A stretch of 64,000 nt of DNA from Carboxylicivirga sp. M1479 (GTDB lineage Bacteria > Bacteroidota > Bacteroidia > Bacteroidales > Marinilabiliaceae). A program made the translations under genes and the position numbers. The number at the start of each line of letters is the position of its first letter. The stretch's first letter is position 1. The notes beneath the pieces are model-generated. The model had not been told where the DNA came from. It worked only from the letters and a program-made list of their open reading frames with translations, and searched no databases. Shown here piece by piece: positions 6,128 through 20,488 of this stretch. The DNA lies in the NCBI RefSeq assembly GCF_007097485.1, contig NZ_VKDE01000024.1, positions 1 through 64,000 on the forward strand, given 5' to 3'.

Positions 6128-7171
6128 TTATAAGCCTGTTACGAATCCAATCCTTTTGTACTTGCCATACTTTAAATCTGTTTGTCTGGCCTCTATTAGA
6201 TAGTTAATTACGATAATTAAAAGGTAGAAAATAAGTAATTGTACGGTAAAAATCCACCATTGAAACGAGCTGGGATCTTGGATATAAGGGAAGAAAAAGT
6301 ACTTTATTATGACGATATGCACAAAATAAATAAAAAGGGATTTCCTGCCGATGGATGATAGTAAATTTTGTTGTTTCCAGGTTGTGCTAACTAATGGAAT
6401 GAGTAAACAATATAAACCTAATAGTAAGAGGTAAAAGATACCTTTTACTGGATAAAAAAGTTCAGTATATCCAATTCTAAACGCTTGAATGTTTGTACTC
6501 TCTTGGGTTAAAAGAATAAACACACTTGTTACTATACTGGCGATACCCAATAGGTAGCAATAGCTTTTAAAACGTTTTAAAAACTTACGGTATTTTGCAA
6601 TTAAATAGCCCGTAATAGCTACGCCTGCCCATGGTAATATCGGAAACCAACCACTGATTACAGCTTGCTTGATAGCTGTAATAATCGATAATTGCTTAAT
6701 AGCAAATACTGACAAGGTACTCATCTCAAACTGATGGTATTTTAATAGTAGCAGGTTCAAAAAGAATAAGGCAGTAACTATAATAAGTTGATAACTTAAA
6801 GAGAACGACCGAATACTAACAATAAGTGCTAATGAAAAAGCAATTAAGTAAAGAACATCGAATGTGTAGAAAGGAAGAATCTGCCATACCAAAGCATCAA
6901 TAATGATTGCAACAACCAGAATTTGAATAACCCTTATCAGTATTTGTTTGGCTGACTTACCAGCTTCTTCAGCCAGGTACAAGGATACACCACTTAGAAA
7001 TATAAACAAGGGTGCGGCCACTGAAAACAGTATTCTCAAACCCATTGGGCAGTAGTTCGAGGGGGCTAAATAGGGCCATGAATTGGCCGCTATCATAATT
7101 ATTATTGCAAAACCTCTGATGCTGTCAATTAGGGTATTACGAACTACTGGAGGGATTATGTCACTACTCAT
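6128..7171 (-). CDS. DUF1624/heparan-alpha-glucosaminide N-acetyltransferase-like membrane acyltransferase
   Basis: 347 residues with about ten membrane helices. The N-terminus 'NTLIDSIRGFAIIIMIAANS' carries the D-x-x-R-G signature of membrane acyltransferases, and 'PLFIFLSGVSLYLAEE' in helix 2 is typical of the DUF1624/HGSNAT group. A later 'SIGRKSLFIYFVHIVIIKYF' segment matches the conserved helix with a His in this superfamily. Such proteins transfer acyl groups across the membrane to glycans or cell-envelope polymers. The substrate cannot be read from the sequence. A (TTTG)10 microsatellite lies about 100 bp upstream of its start. Confidence 0.75.
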   Translation of the reverse strand: MSSDIIPPVVRNTLIDSIRGFAIIIMIAANSWPYLAPSNYCPMGLRILFSVAAPLFIFLSGVSLYLAEEAGKSAKQILIRVIQILVVAIIIDALVWQILPFYTFDVLYLIAFSLALIVSIRSFSLSYQLIIVTALFFLNLLLLKYHQFEMSTLSVFAIKQLSIITAIKQAVISGWFPILPWAGVAITGYLIAKYRKFLKRFKSYCYLLGIASIVTSVFILLTQESTNIQAFRIGYTELFYPVKGIFYLLLLGLYCLLIPLVSTTWKQQNLLSSIGRKSLFIYFVHIVIIKYFFFPYIQDPSSFQWWIFTVQLLIFYLLIIVINYLIEARQTDLKYGKYKRIGFVTGL

Positions 7172-8639: not shown

Positions 8640-10385
8640 ATGTTAAAAATCAAAACGACCTTTATTCTTCTCTTTAGCCTGGTAATAGCGTTTTTGTTAC
8701 TTATTTTATTGGCTTTTCTGGGTCTATTAAAAAACCGTACATCTTTTGGCGAGAGTCAGATTGGTCAGTTACATAGCATCACCCTGAGTGACCAGCTGCG
8801 AGAGCGCAACGATGATCTAACGCATTATTGTTTAAACTACATTATAACAGGCGATGAAAAGTGGGAAGCAGACTATTGGCAGTTGTCCGAGTCATCGCTC
8901 TACCGTTTTCCAAGTAAAAACAAAGGTTTTCAACTGTTGGAGGATAGCATTCGCCAGTTAGGTTATGGCAAAGTGGAGTTTGAGCTCTTAAAGAAGGCTG
9001 TTTATTTATCCATTCAACTTAACCAACAAGAAGCTATGGCCATGCAGATGGTTAAAGATTCGGACAATTCTAGAGTTAACAAAAGAGATCAGGCACTTGA
9101 ATTAATTAGTAATAAGGCTTATGCAGATAACAAACGACAGTTGATAAATACCATTGTGGCTTTTGAGCAGCGCATTGTGGCGCAAACTGAAAAGGCACGA
9201 CAAGAAAATATTAAAGAAGGCATGCGCCTGTATCATGTGGTACTGGCATTACTCATAAGTGTAATCGCTTTTTCATTGGTGGTATTATTCCTGATTCTGA
9301 AACGTGTTAACAGACAAGCACAACAAGATGCCTTGTTTAAGTCGGGTGTTGAACGACAAAAACAAATGCAGGATGAACTACAGAAGAGTGATGAGCGTTT
9401 TCGTTTGGCCGTAGAAGGATCTGGAGCTCGCATATGGGATTACCAGGTCAATCAGTCGAAACTGACCTGGTCGCCATCACATCTTCATCTATTGGGCTAT
9501 GCTCCACACGAAGTAAAACCACAGATGGACTTTTTGTTAGATGTCATGCATATCGACGACCGTTCTAAATTTAAGCATCATCTGGAGCAACACATTCAAG
9601 AGGGGCAATCATTTAATATCGATGTTCGCTTTTATTCCAAAACTGGAGAATTAAGATGGTGCCGTTGCCGTGGTAACTCATCGCGCGAAAGTTCTGGGGT
9701 AGCCCAACGTGTGGTTGGTATTTTTATGGATATCACCGATAGGGTAAAAGCAGAGGAAAGGGCTACCAATGCCATTTTGGAGACCGAAGATCGGGAGCGC
9801 AGTCGCATAGCCCGCGATATACATGATTCATTGCAACAAACGATGTCAACAGCATTGCTTAACTTCGAAAAGGTACGTTCATCCATAGGCACGGACGATG
9901 AATTGTTAACTGAGCGATATCAAACAGGTTATGACTATTTGAAAAAGGCCATAAGTGATAGTCGCTTCTTGGCACATAAGTTAATGCCAAAAGTTGTTGA
10001 TGAAAATGGCCTTGCTTTAGCTATTGATGCTTTAGTGGGAGCACTGAAAGGCTCTTCGGATACCGATATTCAGTTTTATCAAAACCTAAATGAAGAACGT
10101 CTTCCGCTGGCGGCTGAAATGACCATGTACCGCATTGTGCAAGAGGCGGTCAATAATGTGCTTAAATATGCCAAGGCCCAGGAATGCATCATTCAACTGT
10201 TTAAACGCAATAACATTGTGACTTTAACCATTGAAGACGATGGCCTTGGGTTTGATCTTAAAAAAGAGGGTGGCTCATTTGGTTTAAACAGTATGAGAAC
10301 CAGAGCCGAATCCATTGGTGCTTTTTATCAAATAGAAACGGATTTGGGAAGAGACACACAAATATTAATTGAACTAAGCTTATAA
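8640..10385 (+). CDS. PAS-containing sensor histidine kinase, NarX/DegS (HisKA_3) type
   Basis: 581 residues. TM1 (about 7-29), a periplasmic region of about 170 residues rich in helices (CHASE3-like in length), and TM2 (about 200-222). Then a PAS/PAC domain (about 253-375, with 'GICYA/YAPHEVKPQMDF'-like and 'VGIFMDITDRVKAEE' segments). A HisKA_3 dimerisation helix has the phospho-accepting His395 in 'IARDIHDSLQQ', and a C-terminal HATPase carries the N-box 'EAVNNVLKYAKA' and G-box 'IEDDGLGFD'. It is followed after one base by its response regulator. The signal is unknown. Several downstream promoters share an inverted repeat that this pair may control. Confidence 0.9.
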   Translation: MLKIKTTFILLFSLVIAFLLLILLAFLGLLKNRTSFGESQIGQLHSITLSDQLRERNDDLTHYCLNYIITGDEKWEADYWQLSESSLYRFPSKNKGFQLLEDSIRQLGYGKVEFELLKKAVYLSIQLNQQEAMAMQMVKDSDNSRVNKRDQALELISNKAYADNKRQLINTIVAFEQRIVAQTEKARQENIKEGMRLYHVVLALLISVIAFSLVVLFLILKRVNRQAQQDALFKSGVERQKQMQDELQKSDERFRLAVEGSGARIWDYQVNQSKLTWSPSHLHLLGYAPHEVKPQMDFLLDVMHIDDRSKFKHHLEQHIQEGQSFNIDVRFYSKTGELRWCRCRGNSSRESSGVAQRVVGIFMDITDRVKAEERATNAILETEDRERSRIARDIHDSLQQTMSTALLNFEKVRSSIGTDDELLTERYQTGYDYLKKAISDSRFLAHKLMPKVVDENGLALAIDALVGALKGSSDTDIQFYQNLNEERLPLAAEMTMYRIVQEAVNNVLKYAKAQECIIQLFKRNNIVTLTIEDDGLGFDLKKEGGSFGLNSMRTRAESIGAFYQIETDLGRDTQILIELSL

Positions 10386-10386
10386 T

Positions 10387-11040
10387 ATGAAGACGATTAA
10401 AATAGTATTGGTAGATGACCATGCCATGGTTCGCAAAGGATTAAAAGCGTTTTTGGATGCTGATGTTTTTGAAGTTGTTGGAGAAGCCAGCAATGGGAAA
10501 GAGGCTCTTGATTTACTAGCTGATGTTACAATTGACGTATTGGTTACTGATATGATGATGCCTGAGATGAATGGCATTGACTTGTGTAAAGAGGTCAGCA
10601 AGCTTTATCCGGCTATTAATATCCTGGCACTTACCATGATGAATGAGCCTTATAACATTAAGAAAATGTTGGGTGCTGGTGCAAAAGGATACATTCTAAA
10701 AGATTGTACAGAAGAAGAGATGCAGACTGCCATACAGACCGTTAGTACAGGATCGACATATTATAGTCAGGAAGTAACGGGCATTATTATGGAAGGCCTT
10801 ACTGCACAACCGACACCTAAAAAACGCCTGGTAACCGAGATTCCATTGACCAAACGTGAAAATGAAATTCTACACTTGATTTGTAAGGAAAAAAGCAACC
10901 AGGAAATAGCGGATGAGTTATTTATATCGAACAGAACAGTAGAAGCCCATAAACGTAATCTACTTGATAAAACAGGTTGTAAAAATATTGCTGGCTTGGT
11001 GCTATTTGCCGTGGAGCGTAAGCTGTTCGATGACTTGTAA
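10387..11040 (+). CDS. NarL/LuxR-family response regulator
   Basis: 217 residues. The receiver domain (about 1-120) has acidic pocket residues in 'VLVDDHAMVRKG', the phospho-acceptor Asp55 in 'VLVTDMMMPEMNG' and Lys in 'GYILKDCTEEE'. The C-terminal LuxR-type HTH (about 150-215) has 'LTKRENEILHLICKEKSNQEIA' and 'SNRTVEAHKRNLLDKTGCKN'. Its start lies one base after the kinase stop, so the pair is translationally linked. LuxR-type regulators bind inverted repeats as dimers. The shared TTAAGKGNNNCMCTTAA elements that begin 400 bp downstream are plausible targets. Confidence 0.93.
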   Translation: MKTIKIVLVDDHAMVRKGLKAFLDADVFEVVGEASNGKEALDLLADVTIDVLVTDMMMPEMNGIDLCKEVSKLYPAINILALTMMNEPYNIKKMLGAGAKGYILKDCTEEEMQTAIQTVSTGSTYYSQEVTGIIMEGLTAQPTPKKRLVTEIPLTKRENEILHLICKEKSNQEIADELFISNRTVEAHKRNLLDKTGCKNIAGLVLFAVERKLFDDL

Positions 11041-11436: not shown

Positions 11437-11508
11437 TTAAGTGAAACACCTAATTCTCCCATTTACGTTTTGCCCTCAGAAATTGACAGTCGCAACCCTG
11501 CATCTTTG
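11437..11508 (+). promoter_or_regulatory. Shared operator plus -7 element, promoter 1 (first tiny lipoprotein)
   Basis: The inverted-repeat-like TTAAGTGAAACACCTAA (11437-11453) begins (at AAG) 66 bp before the TTTG of CATCTTTG (11501-11508). CCCTC (11473-11477) lies 32 bp before that TTTG. No good -33 TTTG is present at the usual 19-21 bp spacing, which fits an activator-dependent promoter. The whole block is nearly repeated at 11811-11882 upstream of the second tiny gene. Confidence 0.6.
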
Positions 11509-11546
11509 TAATGTAATATTTAATTATCCACTTAAAAATTAGAAAG

Positions 11547-11714
11547 ATGAAGAAGTTAAAGTATTTATTTACAGCAATGGCCATTGTCGCCTCAGTGAGT
11601 TTAGTATCATGTAATAACGATGATGATCCGCAGCCAGAACAACCCGTTCAACCATTACCACCCGAGTATATTGAGCAGCCACTACCCGAAAATCCGGAAG
11701 TGACACCTTATTAA
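11547..11714 (+). CDS. Tiny surface-type lipoprotein, tandem copy 1 (55 aa)
   Basis: 55 residues. The signal peptide has a lipobox ending at Cys22 (SLVSC), followed by NNDDDPQPEQPVQPLPPEY and a short Pro/Glu-rich tail. The acidic NDDD after the Cys resembles the surface-export signal of Bacteroidota lipoproteins, so a short acylated Pro-rich peptide anchored in the outer membrane is inferred. No family is recognised. The gene and its promoter are duplicated 374 bp downstream, and the signal peptide through 'QPVQPLPPE' is almost identical between copies. The ATG is fixed by the signal peptide. Confidence 0.75.
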   Translation: MKKLKYLFTAMAIVASVSLVSCNNDDDPQPEQPVQPLPPEYIEQPLPENPEVTPY

Positions 11715-11810
11715 AGTAAATCATTCTGATATTATGGATAATATCTGAGTTTACACTTCCCTGCATCAATGATGTGGGGATTTGTTATTTAAAGGTGGCT
11801 TAATTTTGAC

Positions 11811-11882
11811 CTAAGGGAAACACCTAACTCTCCCATTTAAGTTTTGCCCTCAGAAATTGGCTGTCTCGATCCTGCATCTTTG
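11811..11882 (+). promoter_or_regulatory. Shared operator plus -7 element, promoter 2 (second tiny lipoprotein)
   Basis: CTAAGGGAAACACCTAA (11811-11827) begins (at AAG, 11813) 66 bp before the TTTG of CATCTTTG (11875-11882), with CCCTC 32 bp upstream of TTTG. It is a duplicate of promoter 1 that has diverged mainly between the CCCTC block and the -7 element. Confidence 0.6.
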
Positions 11883-11920
11883 TAATGTAAAATTTAATTA
11901 TCCACTTAAAATTTAGAACG

Positions 11921-12082
11921 ATGAAGAGATTTAGATTTTTATTTACAGCCATGGCCATAGTTGCCTCAGTGAGTTTAGTATCGTGTAATAACGATGATGA
12001 CCCGCAGCCAGAACAACCCGTTCAGCCCTTGCCACCTGAAGGGATAGAAAATCCACTGCCTCCTAATATTGAGCCGCATTAA
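11921..12082 (+). CDS. Tiny surface-type lipoprotein, tandem copy 2 (53 aa)
   Basis: 53 residues. Same signal peptide and lipobox (Cys22) as the copy at 11547, the same NNDDDPQPEQPVQPLPPE stretch, and a divergent short C-terminus (GIENPLPPNIEPH). The conservation is at protein level with synonymous changes, so both copies appear to be maintained genes. A hairpin that may be its terminator follows at 12123. Confidence 0.75.
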   Translation: MKRFRFLFTAMAIVASVSLVSCNNDDDPQPEQPVQPLPPEGIENPLPPNIEPH

Positions 12083-12122
12083 TATTAATTCCCAATTCAA
12101 GTTTGCTCTTGAATTCCCCAAT

Positions 12123-12150
12123 CTCCCTGCCAAAGGGCGGGGAGGCTTTA
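12123..12150 (+). terminator. Probable terminator after the tiny lipoprotein pair
   Basis: CTCCCTGCC-AAAG-GGCGGGGAG (12123-12144) forms a 9-bp stem with one T-G wobble, followed by GCTTTA. The T-run is weak. It separates the tiny lipoprotein genes from the sulfatase gene. Confidence 0.5.
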
Positions 12151-12259
12151 AATAGGAGTTTGAGATACTTGTATCTATGAGTGAAAATAGCTTTTTTCGC
12201 ATTACAATAAGGAAATGATCTCTATGCCTTTAAAATCTAATCAATTTAAAACTACTATT

Positions 12260-13801
12260 ATGAAAGTCAGACTTTTAACACTAATGAGCCTATTGTTTTG
12301 TTCAACATTCCTATTTGCTCAAAAGCCAAACATTGTGGTAATTACCACCGATGATGTGGCACCAATGGACATATCGGCCTACCATCGCGGTTTGGGTGCT
12401 GTTGAAACACCCAATATCGATCGTATTGCCAAAGAGGGCATGATGATCAGTGATTTTTATGCACATCCTAGTTGTACAGCTGGTCGTGCTGCATTTATTA
12501 CAGGACAATATCCTATTCGTACGGGACTAACATCTGTTGGTCAGCCTGGCTCACATTTGGGCATGCAAGCCGAAGATGTTACACTAGCAGAGTTATTAAA
12601 AGATAAAGGTTATGCCACCGCTCAATTTGGCAAGAGCCATGTGGGCGATCGTAATGAGCACTTACCCACTGTTCATGGTTTTGATGAGTTTTTTGGTGTG
12701 CTTTATCACTTGAACATGATGAACATGCCTGAACAACCTGAGTTTCCAAAGGATCCTAACTACCCGGGCTTGCCTCGTAATGTACTATACACAAAAGCCA
12801 GCGATGTGGATGATTCAACTGTTGACCCGCGTTTTGGTAAAGTAGGTAAACAAACCATCGAGGATAGAGGAACTTTGTATGCTAAGCGACAAGAGACTTT
12901 TGACGATGAGGTATTAGATATTTCCATAGACTGGTTAGATCGTACCAAAAAGGAAGGTGATCCGTTTTTCTTATGGTTCTGTCCAACACGTATGCACCAG
13001 GAGATTTTTGTGAGTGACGAATGGGCTGGTAAGAGTGGTCATGGTAAATATGCCGATGGACTGATGCACATGGATTACTTAATTGGTGAGCTATTGAATA
13101 AGCTTGATGAAATGGGCGTGGCCGACAATACAATTTTATTATTTACATCGGATAATGGTGTTAACCTTTCGCATTGGCCAAGTGCAGGAACTGCAAGCTT
13201 CCGAGGCGAAAAAGGAACAACATGGGACGGTGGTTTACGTGTGCCGATGTTGGTTCGTTGGCCAGGTAAAATTGAAGCTGGACAACACACTGGTGAATTT
13301 ATGACTGCCGAAGATTGGTTGCCTACCTTAATGGCAGCTATTGGCGAAGAAGATATCAAAGAAGAATTGCTTGAAGGTAAAAAAGTGAATGGTAAAGAAT
13401 ATAAGGTACACATTGATGGTTACAACCAAATGGATATGCTTACAGGTAAAGGTAAAACAAAACGTCGTGAGTTCTTTTACTTTGGAGAGAATGATTTAAA
13501 TGCCATTCGTGTTGATAACTGGAAGATTCATTTAGCTGTAAAGGATGAATGGATAAAAGCAAGTGAGAAAATACCAGCAGGTATGATTATCGATATTAAA
13601 CTAGATCCATACGAAAGGACACCTGAAACAAAGGGACACTTCCTATGGATGAAAGAAAAAACGTGGATCTTACCAATGATTACTCCACCAGTAAGAGAGT
13701 TTGTTAAGAGTTTAGAGGCCTTTCCTCCACGACAGAAAGGAGCTGGTATTGGTGCGGCTGCCATTATGAATCAGATTGAAAAAGCAGGCGCCGGAGAATA
13801 G
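12260..13801 (+). CDS. Periplasmic sulfatase (arylsulfatase family)
   Basis: 513 residues from the ATG at 12260, chosen because it starts a clean signal peptide (MKVRLLTLMSLLFCSTFLFAQ). An in-frame ATG at 12215 would add 15 residues. The fold signature is clear: the metal-binding Asp pair 'ITTDD' (31-32), the formylglycine site C-T-A-G-R with Cys72, 'GKSHVGD', 'FTSDNGVN', and 'RGEKGTTWDGGLRVPMLVRW'. The Cys form needs a formylglycine-generating or anaerobic maturase encoded elsewhere. It hydrolyses sulfate esters of glycans, steroids or aromatics; the substrate is unknown. No SusCD genes are adjacent. Unlike its neighbours it lacks the shared operator. Confidence 0.9.
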   Translation: MKVRLLTLMSLLFCSTFLFAQKPNIVVITTDDVAPMDISAYHRGLGAVETPNIDRIAKEGMMISDFYAHPSCTAGRAAFITGQYPIRTGLTSVGQPGSHLGMQAEDVTLAELLKDKGYATAQFGKSHVGDRNEHLPTVHGFDEFFGVLYHLNMMNMPEQPEFPKDPNYPGLPRNVLYTKASDVDDSTVDPRFGKVGKQTIEDRGTLYAKRQETFDDEVLDISIDWLDRTKKEGDPFFLWFCPTRMHQEIFVSDEWAGKSGHGKYADGLMHMDYLIGELLNKLDEMGVADNTILLFTSDNGVNLSHWPSAGTASFRGEKGTTWDGGLRVPMLVRWPGKIEAGQHTGEFMTAEDWLPTLMAAIGEEDIKEELLEGKKVNGKEYKVHIDGYNQMDMLTGKGKTKRREFFYFGENDLNAIRVDNWKIHLAVKDEWIKASEKIPAGMIIDIKLDPYERTPETKGHFLWMKEKTWILPMITPPVREFVKSLEAFPPRQKGAGIGAAAIMNQIEKAGAGE

Positions 13802-13964: not shown

Positions 13965-15425
13965 ATGATGAAACAATTTATAGCATTAACAGGAATAGTA
14001 GCCTTACTTACAACAGCTTGTAATTATATCGCTACGGAAAAAGAACCAAGAAATACACTATATGATCAGGTAGCTCTGCAAGATGATCCGGTAATTAGTG
14101 TTGCACCCAATGCTGATATTGCGGCACAAGGTTATTATCTTGATGCCAAAGCAATGGGAACAATGGCTTATCAGTGGGGGTATGCCATGGTGCGCATGGA
14201 GCAGGCCATGCGCGATTACATTGATGTACCAAATCCTAAGCCAGCAACCAGCTACCGTGCTCCATTGAATGAAATAGGATGGGCCAAAAGACTACCAACG
14301 GCTATGGATGAAGACATGCCAACAGCCAATAACGATACTTATTATATGAGTGCTGTTGTTAACTTAACGGAGCCTTACATTCTTCAAACACCAGACACCG
14401 ATGGTCGTTACTACGTTGTTAATGTATTTGATATGTACCATACCTTAAGCGAGTATATTGGTAAGCGCAATACGGGTACACAGGCACAAACCATCGCTTT
14501 AGTTCCACCAGCGTGGAATGGAAAATTACCCTCAGGTATTGACAAAGTAGTGAATGTACGCACGCCCAAAGCCTGGCTATGGGGACGTATTCATGTATTG
14601 GAGGGTGAAGATGTGAGTAAAGTACATGCACTGCAAGACCAATTCAAGTTAAAGGCAATAAGTGAATATATGGGGCAAGCGAACATGGAGAAGAATACCA
14701 CTTTACCACAGATGCCAAAATATCCTGTTTCTGATACTTTACGCTTTTACCGTTATCTGGCTTTTGCCATGAATCAAAACCCAATATTAGCTGAAGACAG
14801 AGCTTTGGTCGGTCAGCTGGAACGAATTGGGATTAAAAATGGTAAATTTGATGAAGCGTCACTGAATCCGTCTCAGCTGAAAGGATTGAAAGAAGCAGCT
14901 TTAGAAGCTCCATTAACAATTTTATCGAGCATGTATTCGTCATCAACAATTATAAATGGGTGGAATGTTGCCACCAAATTAGATGATTATGGTTTTGATT
15001 ACGGGTTTCGCTCTTTAATAGCAGGGCCTTATTTGGGTGGGCAAGGAGAAAAAGAGGCCATGTATCCGATAAGATATACAGACAGTGATGGTGAAGCGAC
15101 GAGTGGAAAACATAGTTATACGATACGATTTGAAGAGGAGCCTCCGGTTAATGCTTTTTGGTCGCTTACATTATATAAAGCTGACACCAAGCTGTTTTGC
15201 GACAATGAGCTTAATCGCTACAAGTTGAGTAGTGAGTCATCTGGTTTGAAGAAGAATGCTGATGGTTCGTTTGAGATTTTAATTCAAAATGAAAAGCCGG
15301 AGAATACGGATAACTGGTTACCAGCACCTGAAGGCGGTTTTTACTTGATATTGCGCATGTACGAGCCTCATCAGGATGTGATAGATTTAAAGTATGAGTT
15401 GCCTCAAATGGAAAGAATTAGGTAA
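13965..15425 (+). CDS. DUF1254/DUF1214 lipoprotein
   Basis: 486 residues. The lipobox ends at Cys19 (LLTTAC). The N-terminal DUF1254 region (about 55-190) has 'AYQWGYAMVRMEQAM' and 'NNDTYYMSAVVNLTEPYILQ'. The C-terminal DUF1214 region (about 355-470) has 'PVNAFWSLTLYKADTKLFCDN' and 'ENTDNWLPAPEGGFYLILRMY', the typical NWLPaP ending. The biochemical function of this two-domain family is not established. A lipid-anchored periplasmic or outer-membrane location is inferred. It carries the shared operator and has its own terminator. A second family member follows. Confidence 0.88.
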   Translation: MMKQFIALTGIVALLTTACNYIATEKEPRNTLYDQVALQDDPVISVAPNADIAAQGYYLDAKAMGTMAYQWGYAMVRMEQAMRDYIDVPNPKPATSYRAPLNEIGWAKRLPTAMDEDMPTANNDTYYMSAVVNLTEPYILQTPDTDGRYYVVNVFDMYHTLSEYIGKRNTGTQAQTIALVPPAWNGKLPSGIDKVVNVRTPKAWLWGRIHVLEGEDVSKVHALQDQFKLKAISEYMGQANMEKNTTLPQMPKYPVSDTLRFYRYLAFAMNQNPILAEDRALVGQLERIGIKNGKFDEASLNPSQLKGLKEAALEAPLTILSSMYSSSTIINGWNVATKLDDYGFDYGFRSLIAGPYLGGQGEKEAMYPIRYTDSDGEATSGKHSYTIRFEEEPPVNAFWSLTLYKADTKLFCDNELNRYKLSSESSGLKKNADGSFEILIQNEKPENTDNWLPAPEGGFYLILRMYEPHQDVIDLKYELPQMERIR

Positions 15426-15513: not shown

Positions 15514-15585
15514 CTAAGGGAATCACTTAATTATTATTAATTCGTGTTCCCCTCTGCTACACATAATCAGAAAAGAGCAATTTTG
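15514..15585 (+). promoter_or_regulatory. Shared operator plus -7 element, promoter 4 (second DUF1254 gene)
   Basis: CTAAGGGAATCACTTAA (15514-15530) begins (at AAG, 15516) 66 bp before the TTTG of CAATTTTG (15578-15585). CCCTC lies 32 bp before TTTG. The -7 region continues TAATGTAA as in promoters 1 and 2. Confidence 0.6.
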
Positions 15586-15622: not shown

Positions 15623-17053
15623 ATGAAATTCGGTGCTATGATTTCAATATTGATTGCCCTCGCGGTAGTAATGACAAGCTGTTTCTATGAAGATAATGAT
15701 GCGAAACAGGAGATTAAATTTAACTCATTAGAGGAGCAGGTTACTTATCAGCGTGCATTTGAAGCGGTAGTTTGGGCCATGCCAGCCACAGCTATTTATC
15801 GTTTGCGCAAAGGCTTTATGGAGTTGCCAGGTGTTGATAATAATGTGGTGGTTGCATATTCTGCCCCCGCATTATCGCAGCATAAAGCCATTACGGCTAA
15901 TACCGCTACCCCGTATATATGTGCATTTACCGATTTGCGAAATGGCCCGGTTGTATTGGAAATACCTGCGGCGGGTGAGAAAGCTAGTTTGTACGGGCAA
16001 GTGGTGGATGCCTGGCAATCAACGATTGCAGATGTAGGGCCATCTGGTGCTGATAAAGGTAAAGGCGGTAAATATCTGTTTATACCTCCTGCTTATACCG
16101 GTGCCATACCTACTTCCGGCTATTTTCCAATACAATGTACCACCAACCGTATTTCATTGGTTTTTCGATCGATAAGAGGGCAGAATGCCACCGATGAAGA
16201 TGCCTATCAATATACAAAGACCATGAAAATGTATTACTTGGGAGCCGAAAGTACCGAAACAAAGTTTGTTGATGGTCTTCAATATCCCTTGGAAACATTA
16301 CCTCGTTATGATGAACGTGCTTTGAAAGATATACATGCCATTTTTAGTGTTGAACCAGTTTTGGAACGTGACAAAGTAATGATGGGGCATCTGGCAAGCA
16401 TTGGTATAGAAAAAGGTAAACCTTATCAACCGTCAGCACGCCAGAATGAATTATTCAGGAAAGCGGCGCAGGATGCGTATAGTTATGTGTACAATTTGGT
16501 TACTGAACACCACAAGCAAGGTTTGTATTGGAATGATAAGCACTGGAGCTTTGTGATGCAGACTGATGAGGTGGATGGATTTGACTTTGTTACTGAAGAA
16601 CAAATTGAGATAGATAAGCGAGCGGCAGCATGGAGTTTTTTTACTTTGTATCCCAAAACCTTAGGTGAACGACCAGCGACTGTGTACCTGGCTCCAACTG
16701 CCGATTCAAAAGGGAGAGCTCTGGAAGCCGATAAATTGTATAAAGTCAGGATTCCGAAAGAAATACCAACTAAGCAGTTTTGGTCCATTACTGTGTATGA
16801 CGATGCTACTTGGGCTTTTATAGATAATCCTATTGGGCGTTCGGGTTTGGGCTTATTTAATACAACAGATATGCAAATGAATGACGATGGCAGTGTGGAT
16901 GTTTATTTTGGACCCACCGCTCCCGATGGATTGGAGTCCAATTGGGTGCCTACCTCAGGCAAAAAGCCATATGTTTGGTTACGACTTTATGGACCTGATG
17001 AAGCCTTTTGGGATAAATCCTTTGTAATGCCGGATGTGCAGTTGATACAGTAA
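15623..17053 (+). CDS. DUF1254/DUF1214 lipoprotein, second family member
   Basis: 476 residues. The lipobox ends at Cys20 (VMTSC). DUF1254 features: 'YQRAFEAVVWAMPATAIYRL' and 'ANTATPYICAFTDLRNGPVV'. DUF1214 features: 'PTKQFWSITVYDDATWAFID' and 'LESNWVPTSGKKPYVWLRLY'. It is only distantly similar to the preceding gene, so the two are diverged paralogues and not a recent duplication. Each has its own promoter with the same operator. The function of the family is unknown. Membrane-anchored and acting in the periplasm is inferred. Confidence 0.88.
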   Translation: MKFGAMISILIALAVVMTSCFYEDNDAKQEIKFNSLEEQVTYQRAFEAVVWAMPATAIYRLRKGFMELPGVDNNVVVAYSAPALSQHKAITANTATPYICAFTDLRNGPVVLEIPAAGEKASLYGQVVDAWQSTIADVGPSGADKGKGGKYLFIPPAYTGAIPTSGYFPIQCTTNRISLVFRSIRGQNATDEDAYQYTKTMKMYYLGAESTETKFVDGLQYPLETLPRYDERALKDIHAIFSVEPVLERDKVMMGHLASIGIEKGKPYQPSARQNELFRKAAQDAYSYVYNLVTEHHKQGLYWNDKHWSFVMQTDEVDGFDFVTEEQIEIDKRAAAWSFFTLYPKTLGERPATVYLAPTADSKGRALEADKLYKVRIPKEIPTKQFWSITVYDDATWAFIDNPIGRSGLGLFNTTDMQMNDDGSVDVYFGPTAPDGLESNWVPTSGKKPYVWLRLYGPDEAFWDKSFVMPDVQLIQ

Positions 17054-19544: not shown

Positions 19545-19614
19545 TTAAGGGAGAGACTTACCCTATAAAGTCAGAAAACTACCTTTACTCACCTTTTGTT
19601 TCACTTCATCTTTG
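19545..19614 (+). promoter_or_regulatory. Shared operator plus -7 element, promoter 5 (SnoaL-like gene)
   Basis: TTAAGGGAGAGACTTAC (19545-19561) begins (at AAG, 19547) 64 bp before the TTTG of CATCTTTG (19607-19614), 2 bp shorter than in the other four promoters. The CCCTC block is missing. CCCTTA-CT-TAAGGG (19538-19551) adds an overlapping palindrome on the upstream side. Confidence 0.5.
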
Positions 19615-19639: not shown

Positions 19640-20488
19640 ATGCAGAAACTCTACACAATTACAGTTCTAACCTTGGCGCTCTTAATGTCATGCGAGGCCA
19701 ATAACAATGATGAAAAAATGGAAATATCAAACAAACAAAAGGTAGTTGAATTATTAAAAAGTATCGAAACTGGTGCATCGGAACCAATCGCCTACATCAA
19801 TGCTAACAAATATATTTAGCATAATCAATCTGTTGCCGATGGTTTGGCAGGGTTTGGCGCTTTGCTACAACAATTGCCAGCCGGAAGTGCAAAAGTGAAT
19901 ACTATTCGTGTTTTTGAGGATGGAAATTTTGTAATTGCACATACCGATTATAATTTTTTTGGACCTAAGATTGGCATCGATATTTTTAGGTTTGAAGATG
20001 GTTTAATTGTGGAACATTGGGATAATTTGCAAGAGAAGGTTAGCGAAACAGCCTCTGGACGAACTCAAATTGATGGGCCGACAATTATTGAAGATCTAGC
20101 AAAAACGAATAGTAACAAGGCTTTAGTAAAAGGACTATTGGATGATGTGTTTTTGGGTGCAAATCCTGATAAAATTACCGATTATATTTCCAGTGAGAAG
20201 TATTTTCAGCATAACCCTGGTGTAAAAGATGGCCTTGCTGGATTAGGAGATGCATTGGCAGCACTTGCTGAAGCTGGTATGCCGATGGTATACGAAAAGA
20301 ATCATGCCATTTTCGGAGAGGGTAATTTTGTACTTAGCGTATCGGAAGGTGTTTTTATGAATAAGAAAGTTGCTTTTTATGATATTTTCAGGATAGAGAA
20401 TGGTCTAGTTGTGGAGCATTGGGATACCATTGAAGAAATTTTAGCTGATTCAGATGCAAAAAATGGTAACGGTAAATTTAACTTTTAA
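19640..20488 (+). pseudogene. Two-domain NTF2/SnoaL-like lipoprotein gene interrupted by an in-frame amber codon
   Basis: The ATG at 19640 opens a lipoprotein (lipobox ends at Cys18, LLMSC). Codon 60 is TAG (19817-19819), and the frame continues uninterrupted to 20488, giving 282 residues in all. The two halves are homologous: 'NKYI*HNQSVADGLAGFGALL' aligns with 'EKYFQHNPGVKDGLAGLGDAL', so the stop replaces a Gln (CAG to TAG, one transition). Both halves carry the SnoaL ending 'DIFRxExGLxVEHWD'. The rest shows no decay, so the mutation is recent, suppressed or a sequencing error. A product starting at 19844 would lack the signal peptide. Confidence 0.8.

Follow-up and report, generated by a model that had tools for sequence, protein, structure and literature searches.

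Tandem genes for two tiny proline-rich lipoproteins are predicted members of a local two-component regulon in Carboxylicivirga

Two short genes repeated in tandem in the window (the whole 64,000-nucleotide stretch analyzed here, located on contig 48 of the Carboxylicivirga genome G000) encode tiny proline-rich lipoproteins. On the basis of conserved sequence features, we propose with moderate confidence that, within a local regulon under the adjacent kinase/regulator pair, these genes are the most constant outputs, each transcribed as its own unit. The preliminary description of this DNA had presented the pair as a self-contained "minimal cassette". The copies appear instead to be targets within a regulon that also includes DUF1254/DUF1214 and sulfatase genes, with the likely regulator encoded directly upstream (Table 1). 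What were two anonymous micro-ORFs can thus be assigned to an undescribed lipoprotein family, for which a candidate regulator, an explicit operator, and a testable regulon can be named.

Table 1. Features of the lipoprotein locus and its surroundings in the window
Feature	Position	Strand	Basis and remarks
Histidine kinase (HisKA_3, PAS, HATPase_c), proposed regulon sensor	8640..10385	+	Pfam and orthologs
NarL-type response regulator (Response_reg and GerE/LuxR HTH), proposed operator binder	10387..11040	+	Pfam; binding predicted
Palindromic operator, copy 1 (TAAGTG-AAA-CACCTA)	11438..11452	+	63 bp 5′ of −7 box
Second conserved promoter element, copy 1, TACGTTTTGCCCTCA	11464..11478	+	37 bp 5′ of −7 box; upstream-region alignment
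−7 element, copy 1, CATCTTTG	11501..11508	+	Upstream alignment
Conserved 5′ leader, copy 1, TTTAATTATCCACTTAAAA	11519..11537	+	Leader common to both copies
Tiny Pro-rich lipoprotein 1	11547..11714	+	55 aa; mature part 34 aa, 10 Pro, 8 Asp/Glu, 0 Lys/Arg
Terminator-like hairpin after gene 1	11751..11786	+	Conserved with compensatory changes
Palindromic operator, copy 2 (TAAGGG-AAA-CACCTA)	11812..11826	+	Upstream alignment and genome scan
Second conserved promoter element, copy 2, TAAGTTTTGCCCTCA	11838..11852	+	Upstream-region alignment
−7 element, copy 2, CATCTTTG	11875..11882	+	Upstream alignment
Tiny Pro-rich lipoprotein 2	11921..12082	+	53 aa; mature part 32 aa, 10 Pro, 7 Asp/Glu, 0 Lys/Arg
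Terminator-like hairpin after gene 2	12121..12145	+	Downstream sequence
Exported sulfatase (PF00884)	12215..13801	+	Pfam; neighbor of lipoprotein 2
DUF1254/DUF1214 protein, neighbor	13965..15425	+	Pfam
Third operator, TAAGGGAATCACTTA	15515..15529	+	−7 box at 15578-15585; genome scan
Second DUF1254/DUF1214 protein, predicted regulon member	15623..17053	+	Pfam; operator site upstream

The locus is built on a direct repeat of 249 nucleotides (11438-11686 and 11812-12060; 86% identical, spacing 374 bp). Each copy carries a palindrome and a second element ahead of a −7-like box, then a conserved leader, and extends into the 5′ end of a short lipoprotein gene. Homologs in 10 genomes share the same promoter architecture and, together with the selection described below, place the pattern well beyond chance. 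The earlier reading of a tandem duplication of promoter plus lipoprotein gene is thus upheld. The parts listed there for each copy (operator, −7 element, leader, lipobox LVSC, and the stretches NNDDDP and QPVQPLPPE) are indeed present in both. The signal peptide, MKKLKYLFTAMAIVASVSLVSC, has the positively charged start, hydrophobic stretch, and lipobox ending in Cys expected of a lipoprotein, and the Ser-Cys of the lipobox is invariant among 13 aligned sequences. Common gene callers reach down to about 30 residues, and the products, at 53-55 residues, do not fall below usual gene-calling length as had been stated.

Both ORFs are real, conserved genes. Among 13 genes of the subtype to which they belong (type A), pN is lower than pS over the whole length in all 78 pairwise comparisons. 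The two window copies differ by 20 silent and 15 replacement changes, for a dN of 0.13 and a dN/dS of about 0.13 by the NG86 method, with dS (~1.0) near saturation. The suggested comparison of dN/dS thus reveals purifying selection on both frames. That the ORFs arose spuriously within a repeated promoter region, a reading favored by their shortness alone, is hardly credible given this ratio and their conservation across several genera. When the analysis is restricted to the part after the Cys, pN remains below pS in 153 of 153 pairs, indicating that the mature tail is itself constrained. Type-A mature peptides contain 32-36 residues, with 8-11 Pro, 6-8 acidic, and 0-2 basic residues, and are expected to be disordered. 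The tails of the two copies do differ in sequence, as first noted, but they are not free to vary, and a QPLP-x-QPLP-x-P pattern is retained throughout the type-A mature peptides. These properties bear on the original suggestion that the products are surface signaling peptides or decoys. Their small size, lipidation, acidity, Pro content, and variable tails would suit such a role, yet selection on the tails is purifying rather than diversifying, and no recurrent receptor, processing protease, or transporter gene lies beside the lipoprotein genes; we consider this reading improbable.

In a tree built from promoter plus gene, the window copies form one group (support 0.95), as do the members of a tandem pair in genome G034, implying that duplication or homogenization happened repeatedly. 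A search of the window's own genome for more copies, as had been proposed, found none of the type-A subtype beyond the two but did recover two diverged paralogs, on contigs 98 and 1. A separate leader match on contig 98 (81800) was rejected as a further copy, as it leads into a larger, SusD-like lipoprotein gene. Three type-A genes (L070, L073, and L074, from G005 and G004) start about 29 codons earlier, so that a long charged n-region precedes the usual signal peptide.

The upstream regions of type-A genes share a fixed layout. The palindrome, TAnGnGnnnCnCnTA, lies exactly 63 bp from the −7 box in nearly all of them (64 bp in the G034 tandem pair), and the second element ends in CCCTCA 37 bp 5′ of that box. 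No conserved −33 element was found in the type-A upstream alignments, and the layout is the one expected of an activator-dependent promoter, as far as sequence can indicate. Most type-A genes are followed by a hairpin, TTCCCTTCATC..GATGAGGGGATTTGT, in which 4 of 13 pairs show compensatory changes. Its terminator-like position suggests that each copy probably yields its own short mRNA as an independent transcription unit. The conserved leader, the covarying hairpin, and a predicted transcript of only ~280 nt could also mean that a short RNA is the functional product and the frame secondary. The strong codon-level constraint, the terminator-like position of the hairpin, and a sole, sub-threshold Rfam match (NsiR1, 20.3 bits against a cut-off of 39) make this very improbable.

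To define the regulon, we scanned 20 whole genomes, 10 with a type-A lipoprotein and 10 relatives without, for the palindrome followed by a 48-bp gap and the −7 box. All 27 sites fall in the 10 genomes with the lipoprotein, with none in the 10 relatives lacking it, and a reversed control pattern gives a single site in the same scan. Every one of the 27 sites precedes a gene of one of three families: lipoprotein (13), DUF1254/DUF1214 (9), or sulfatase (5), assigned by Pfam in the window and by sequence resemblance in the other genomes. Of the three sites in the window's genome, two stand before the lipoprotein genes and one before the DUF1254 gene at 15623. No strict operator site was found at the window sulfatase gene, and the five sulfatase sites belong to relatives. 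Additional strict palindromes on contigs 1, 35, and 53 of the window's genome were left out; no such promoter follows them, and at least two lie inside long open frames. A weak operator-like site (7/8 matches, 61 bp from a −7 box) was also seen at 19546. Beyond it, an ORF for a small lipoprotein (19640-19819) and a SnoaL-like ORF (19844-20488) share one frame with an in-frame TAG (19817-19819) between them, and a nonsense codon probably splits what was a single gene across 19640-20488.

The enzymes that share the operator are unevenly understood. The window sulfatase resembles solved arylsulfatases. The DUF1254/DUF1214 relatives of known structure, VPA0106 and VPA0735, are uncharacterized, and our literature search for a function of this family, judged by occurrence counts, returned passing mentions only. 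An operator common to DUF1254/DUF1214 genes thus offers a handle on poorly understood proteins.

The candidate regulators are encoded immediately upstream. Of 71 family genomes, 9 have an ortholog of the kinase, in every case with a type-A lipoprotein gene immediately downstream, and just 1 of the 62 family genomes without the kinase (G005) has a type-A lipoprotein. Regulator orthologs beside the lipoprotein in the other eight kinase genomes are 67-81% identical to that of the window. A search of 295 sampled genomes of the class at E≤1e-90 recovered no kinase ortholog beyond the window genome. Kinase and regulator accompany the operator in 9 of the 10 operator-bearing genomes. The exception is again G005, which keeps the lipoprotein (locus L070) and two strict operator sites; recognizable orthologs of kinase and regulator were not found there, implying that another regulator may bind the site or that the loss is recent. 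The combination of a HisKA_3 kinase, a GerE-domain regulator, and a palindromic operator 5′ of the −7 box resembles NarL/FixJ-type two-component regulons, although the operator sequence and the set of lipoprotein, DUF1254/1214, and sulfatase genes were found in no source consulted and were seen in one family only. The fixed-position operator before the member genes and the pairing of kinase with lipoprotein make the lipoproteins most likely the output of a local two-component regulon rather than a free cassette.

In the mechanism we envisage, the kinase at 8640 would sense a cue and the NarL-type regulator at 10387 would bind the palindrome located 63 bp 5′ of the −7 box, activating both lipoprotein genes, the DUF1254/DUF1214 gene and, in several relatives, a sulfatase gene. 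Gene duplication would raise the lipoprotein dose. The main rival casts the lipoproteins as outer-membrane-anchored peptides that give the kinase feedback or sensory input on envelope state or ligand binding, their synthesis being autoregulated. It draws on the adjacency of the lipoprotein to kinase and regulator in 9 of 9 kinase genomes and on paralogs frequently adjoined by an AraC regulator of their own, an arrangement that would fit a lipoprotein-regulator pair. The operator, however, also precedes enzyme genes, so the lipoprotein need not be part of a sensor. AraC regulators, moreover, are cytoplasmic proteins that require no partner in the outer membrane, AraC paralogs exist without such a lipoprotein, and G005 has the lipoprotein gene without the kinase. 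We regard a sensory role as rather unlikely and retain the view that the lipoproteins are regulon outputs.

The lipoproteins are predicted to reside in the outer membrane, where surface exposure is suggested by their N termini. The motifs SDDDD, SDDFE, and K-(D/E)2 after the +1 Cys constitute a Bacteroidetes lipoprotein export signal, of which SDDDD was tested; the signal is proven in Capnocytophaga, and consensus sequences from Bacteroides and Flavobacterium are transferable (PMC5080379). Residues +2 to +6 of the lipoproteins read NNDDD, SNDDD, or NKDEE, conforming to the rule of a polar or basic residue with at least two acidic ones directly after the +1 Cys. They share with the surface lipoproteins of that study a polar residue followed by several acidic ones after the lipid-modified Cys. 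The published cases (for instance, sialidase and MucG) are larger, with the mature part of the window family spanning only 32-36 residues, and the signal was demonstrated in Capnocytophaga rather than in Marinilabiliaceae (PMC5080379). The acidic CNNDDD/CSNDDD start therefore agrees with the initial picture of surface-anchored Pro-rich peptides, and both lipoproteins are probably displayed on the cell surface. As to their role, we tentatively suggest that they form an extended, acidic brush, or act as a docking tag, which would be anchored to the surface by lipid and produced in abundance whenever the cell employs the exported sulfatase/DUF1254 system.

The lipoproteins represent an undescribed family of tiny, acidic, Pro-rich lipoproteins confined to the Marinilabiliaceae, in which NCBI places Carboxylicivirga. 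No Pfam family matches either protein, and NCBIfam yields sub-threshold matches only, within the signal peptide. The closest of these, the PG1828 family lipoprotein (NF050142, 59 aa, Porphyromonas gingivalis), is similar in phylum (Bacteroidota), size, signal peptide, and lipobox, but the match is confined to the signal region (residues 1-28) and the Pro-rich tail has no counterpart; membership was rejected at 22.6 and 21.1 bits against a cut-off of 50. An MNIO-class RiPP precursor (chryseobasin-related, NF050125) was likewise rejected, at 14.7 bits against a cut-off of 40 and in the signal region only; the window peptides have no second Cys and no core cysteines. A literature search for small Pro-rich Bacteroidetes lipoproteins found none. 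Named relatives retrieved by protein search come from Carboxylicivirga, Saccharicrinis, and Bacteroidales MAG contigs, and the 10 genomes with type-A homologs span several genera. A wide distribution in the order was considered and rejected, since most profile matches outside the family are to the signal peptides of larger lipoproteins.

More diverged relatives (type B), of roughly 52-115 residues with repeated HLPE or NPI-P tail motifs, occur in about 15 genomes. In 18 of 35 type-B upstream regions (mean of 0.11 in shuffles) there is a direct repeat, TGnnC..GG, whose units lie exactly 21 bp apart, usually at positions −58 and −37 relative to the −7 box, and a divergent AraC-family gene is found at about half of type-B loci. 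An AraC-type regulator with a direct-repeat operator fits these paralogs but not the arrangement of the two window genes. The G048 paralog L082 adjoins an AraC gene instead of kinase and regulator and is without the palindrome. The same AraC family also occurs beside other exported enzymes without a lipoprotein. With type A linked to a two-component pair and type B often to AraC, a single peptide family is tied to regulators of two unrelated classes, suggesting that its role is one needed by several inducible pathways. A bolder reading, which we think unlikely, is that clade-specific regulator-lipopeptide pairs (two-component or AraC) form a modular surface-sensing or surface-conditioning system in which the regulator class was swapped at least once; if true, each tiny acidic Pro-rich surface lipoprotein would be coupled to its own regulator.

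Several further observations concern these loci. Four or five AraC paralogs stand in an array at L147 and at L148 (G009 contig 45 and G001 contig 98, respectively), at intervals of ~3 kb, and every one of them lies close to a different exported protein (Beta-lactamase family, choloylglycine hydrolase family, M20 peptidase, Omp85-like). A heparan-glucosaminide acetyltransferase-like gene (window 6128-7171) lies near the type-A locus, and its paralog (L061, 4426-5562) stands beside a type-B lipoprotein gene in the same genome. Two type-B proteins have expanded tail repeats (L080, 6689-6985, and L159, 13196-13540; 98 and 114 aa, respectively), suggesting that repeat number varies.
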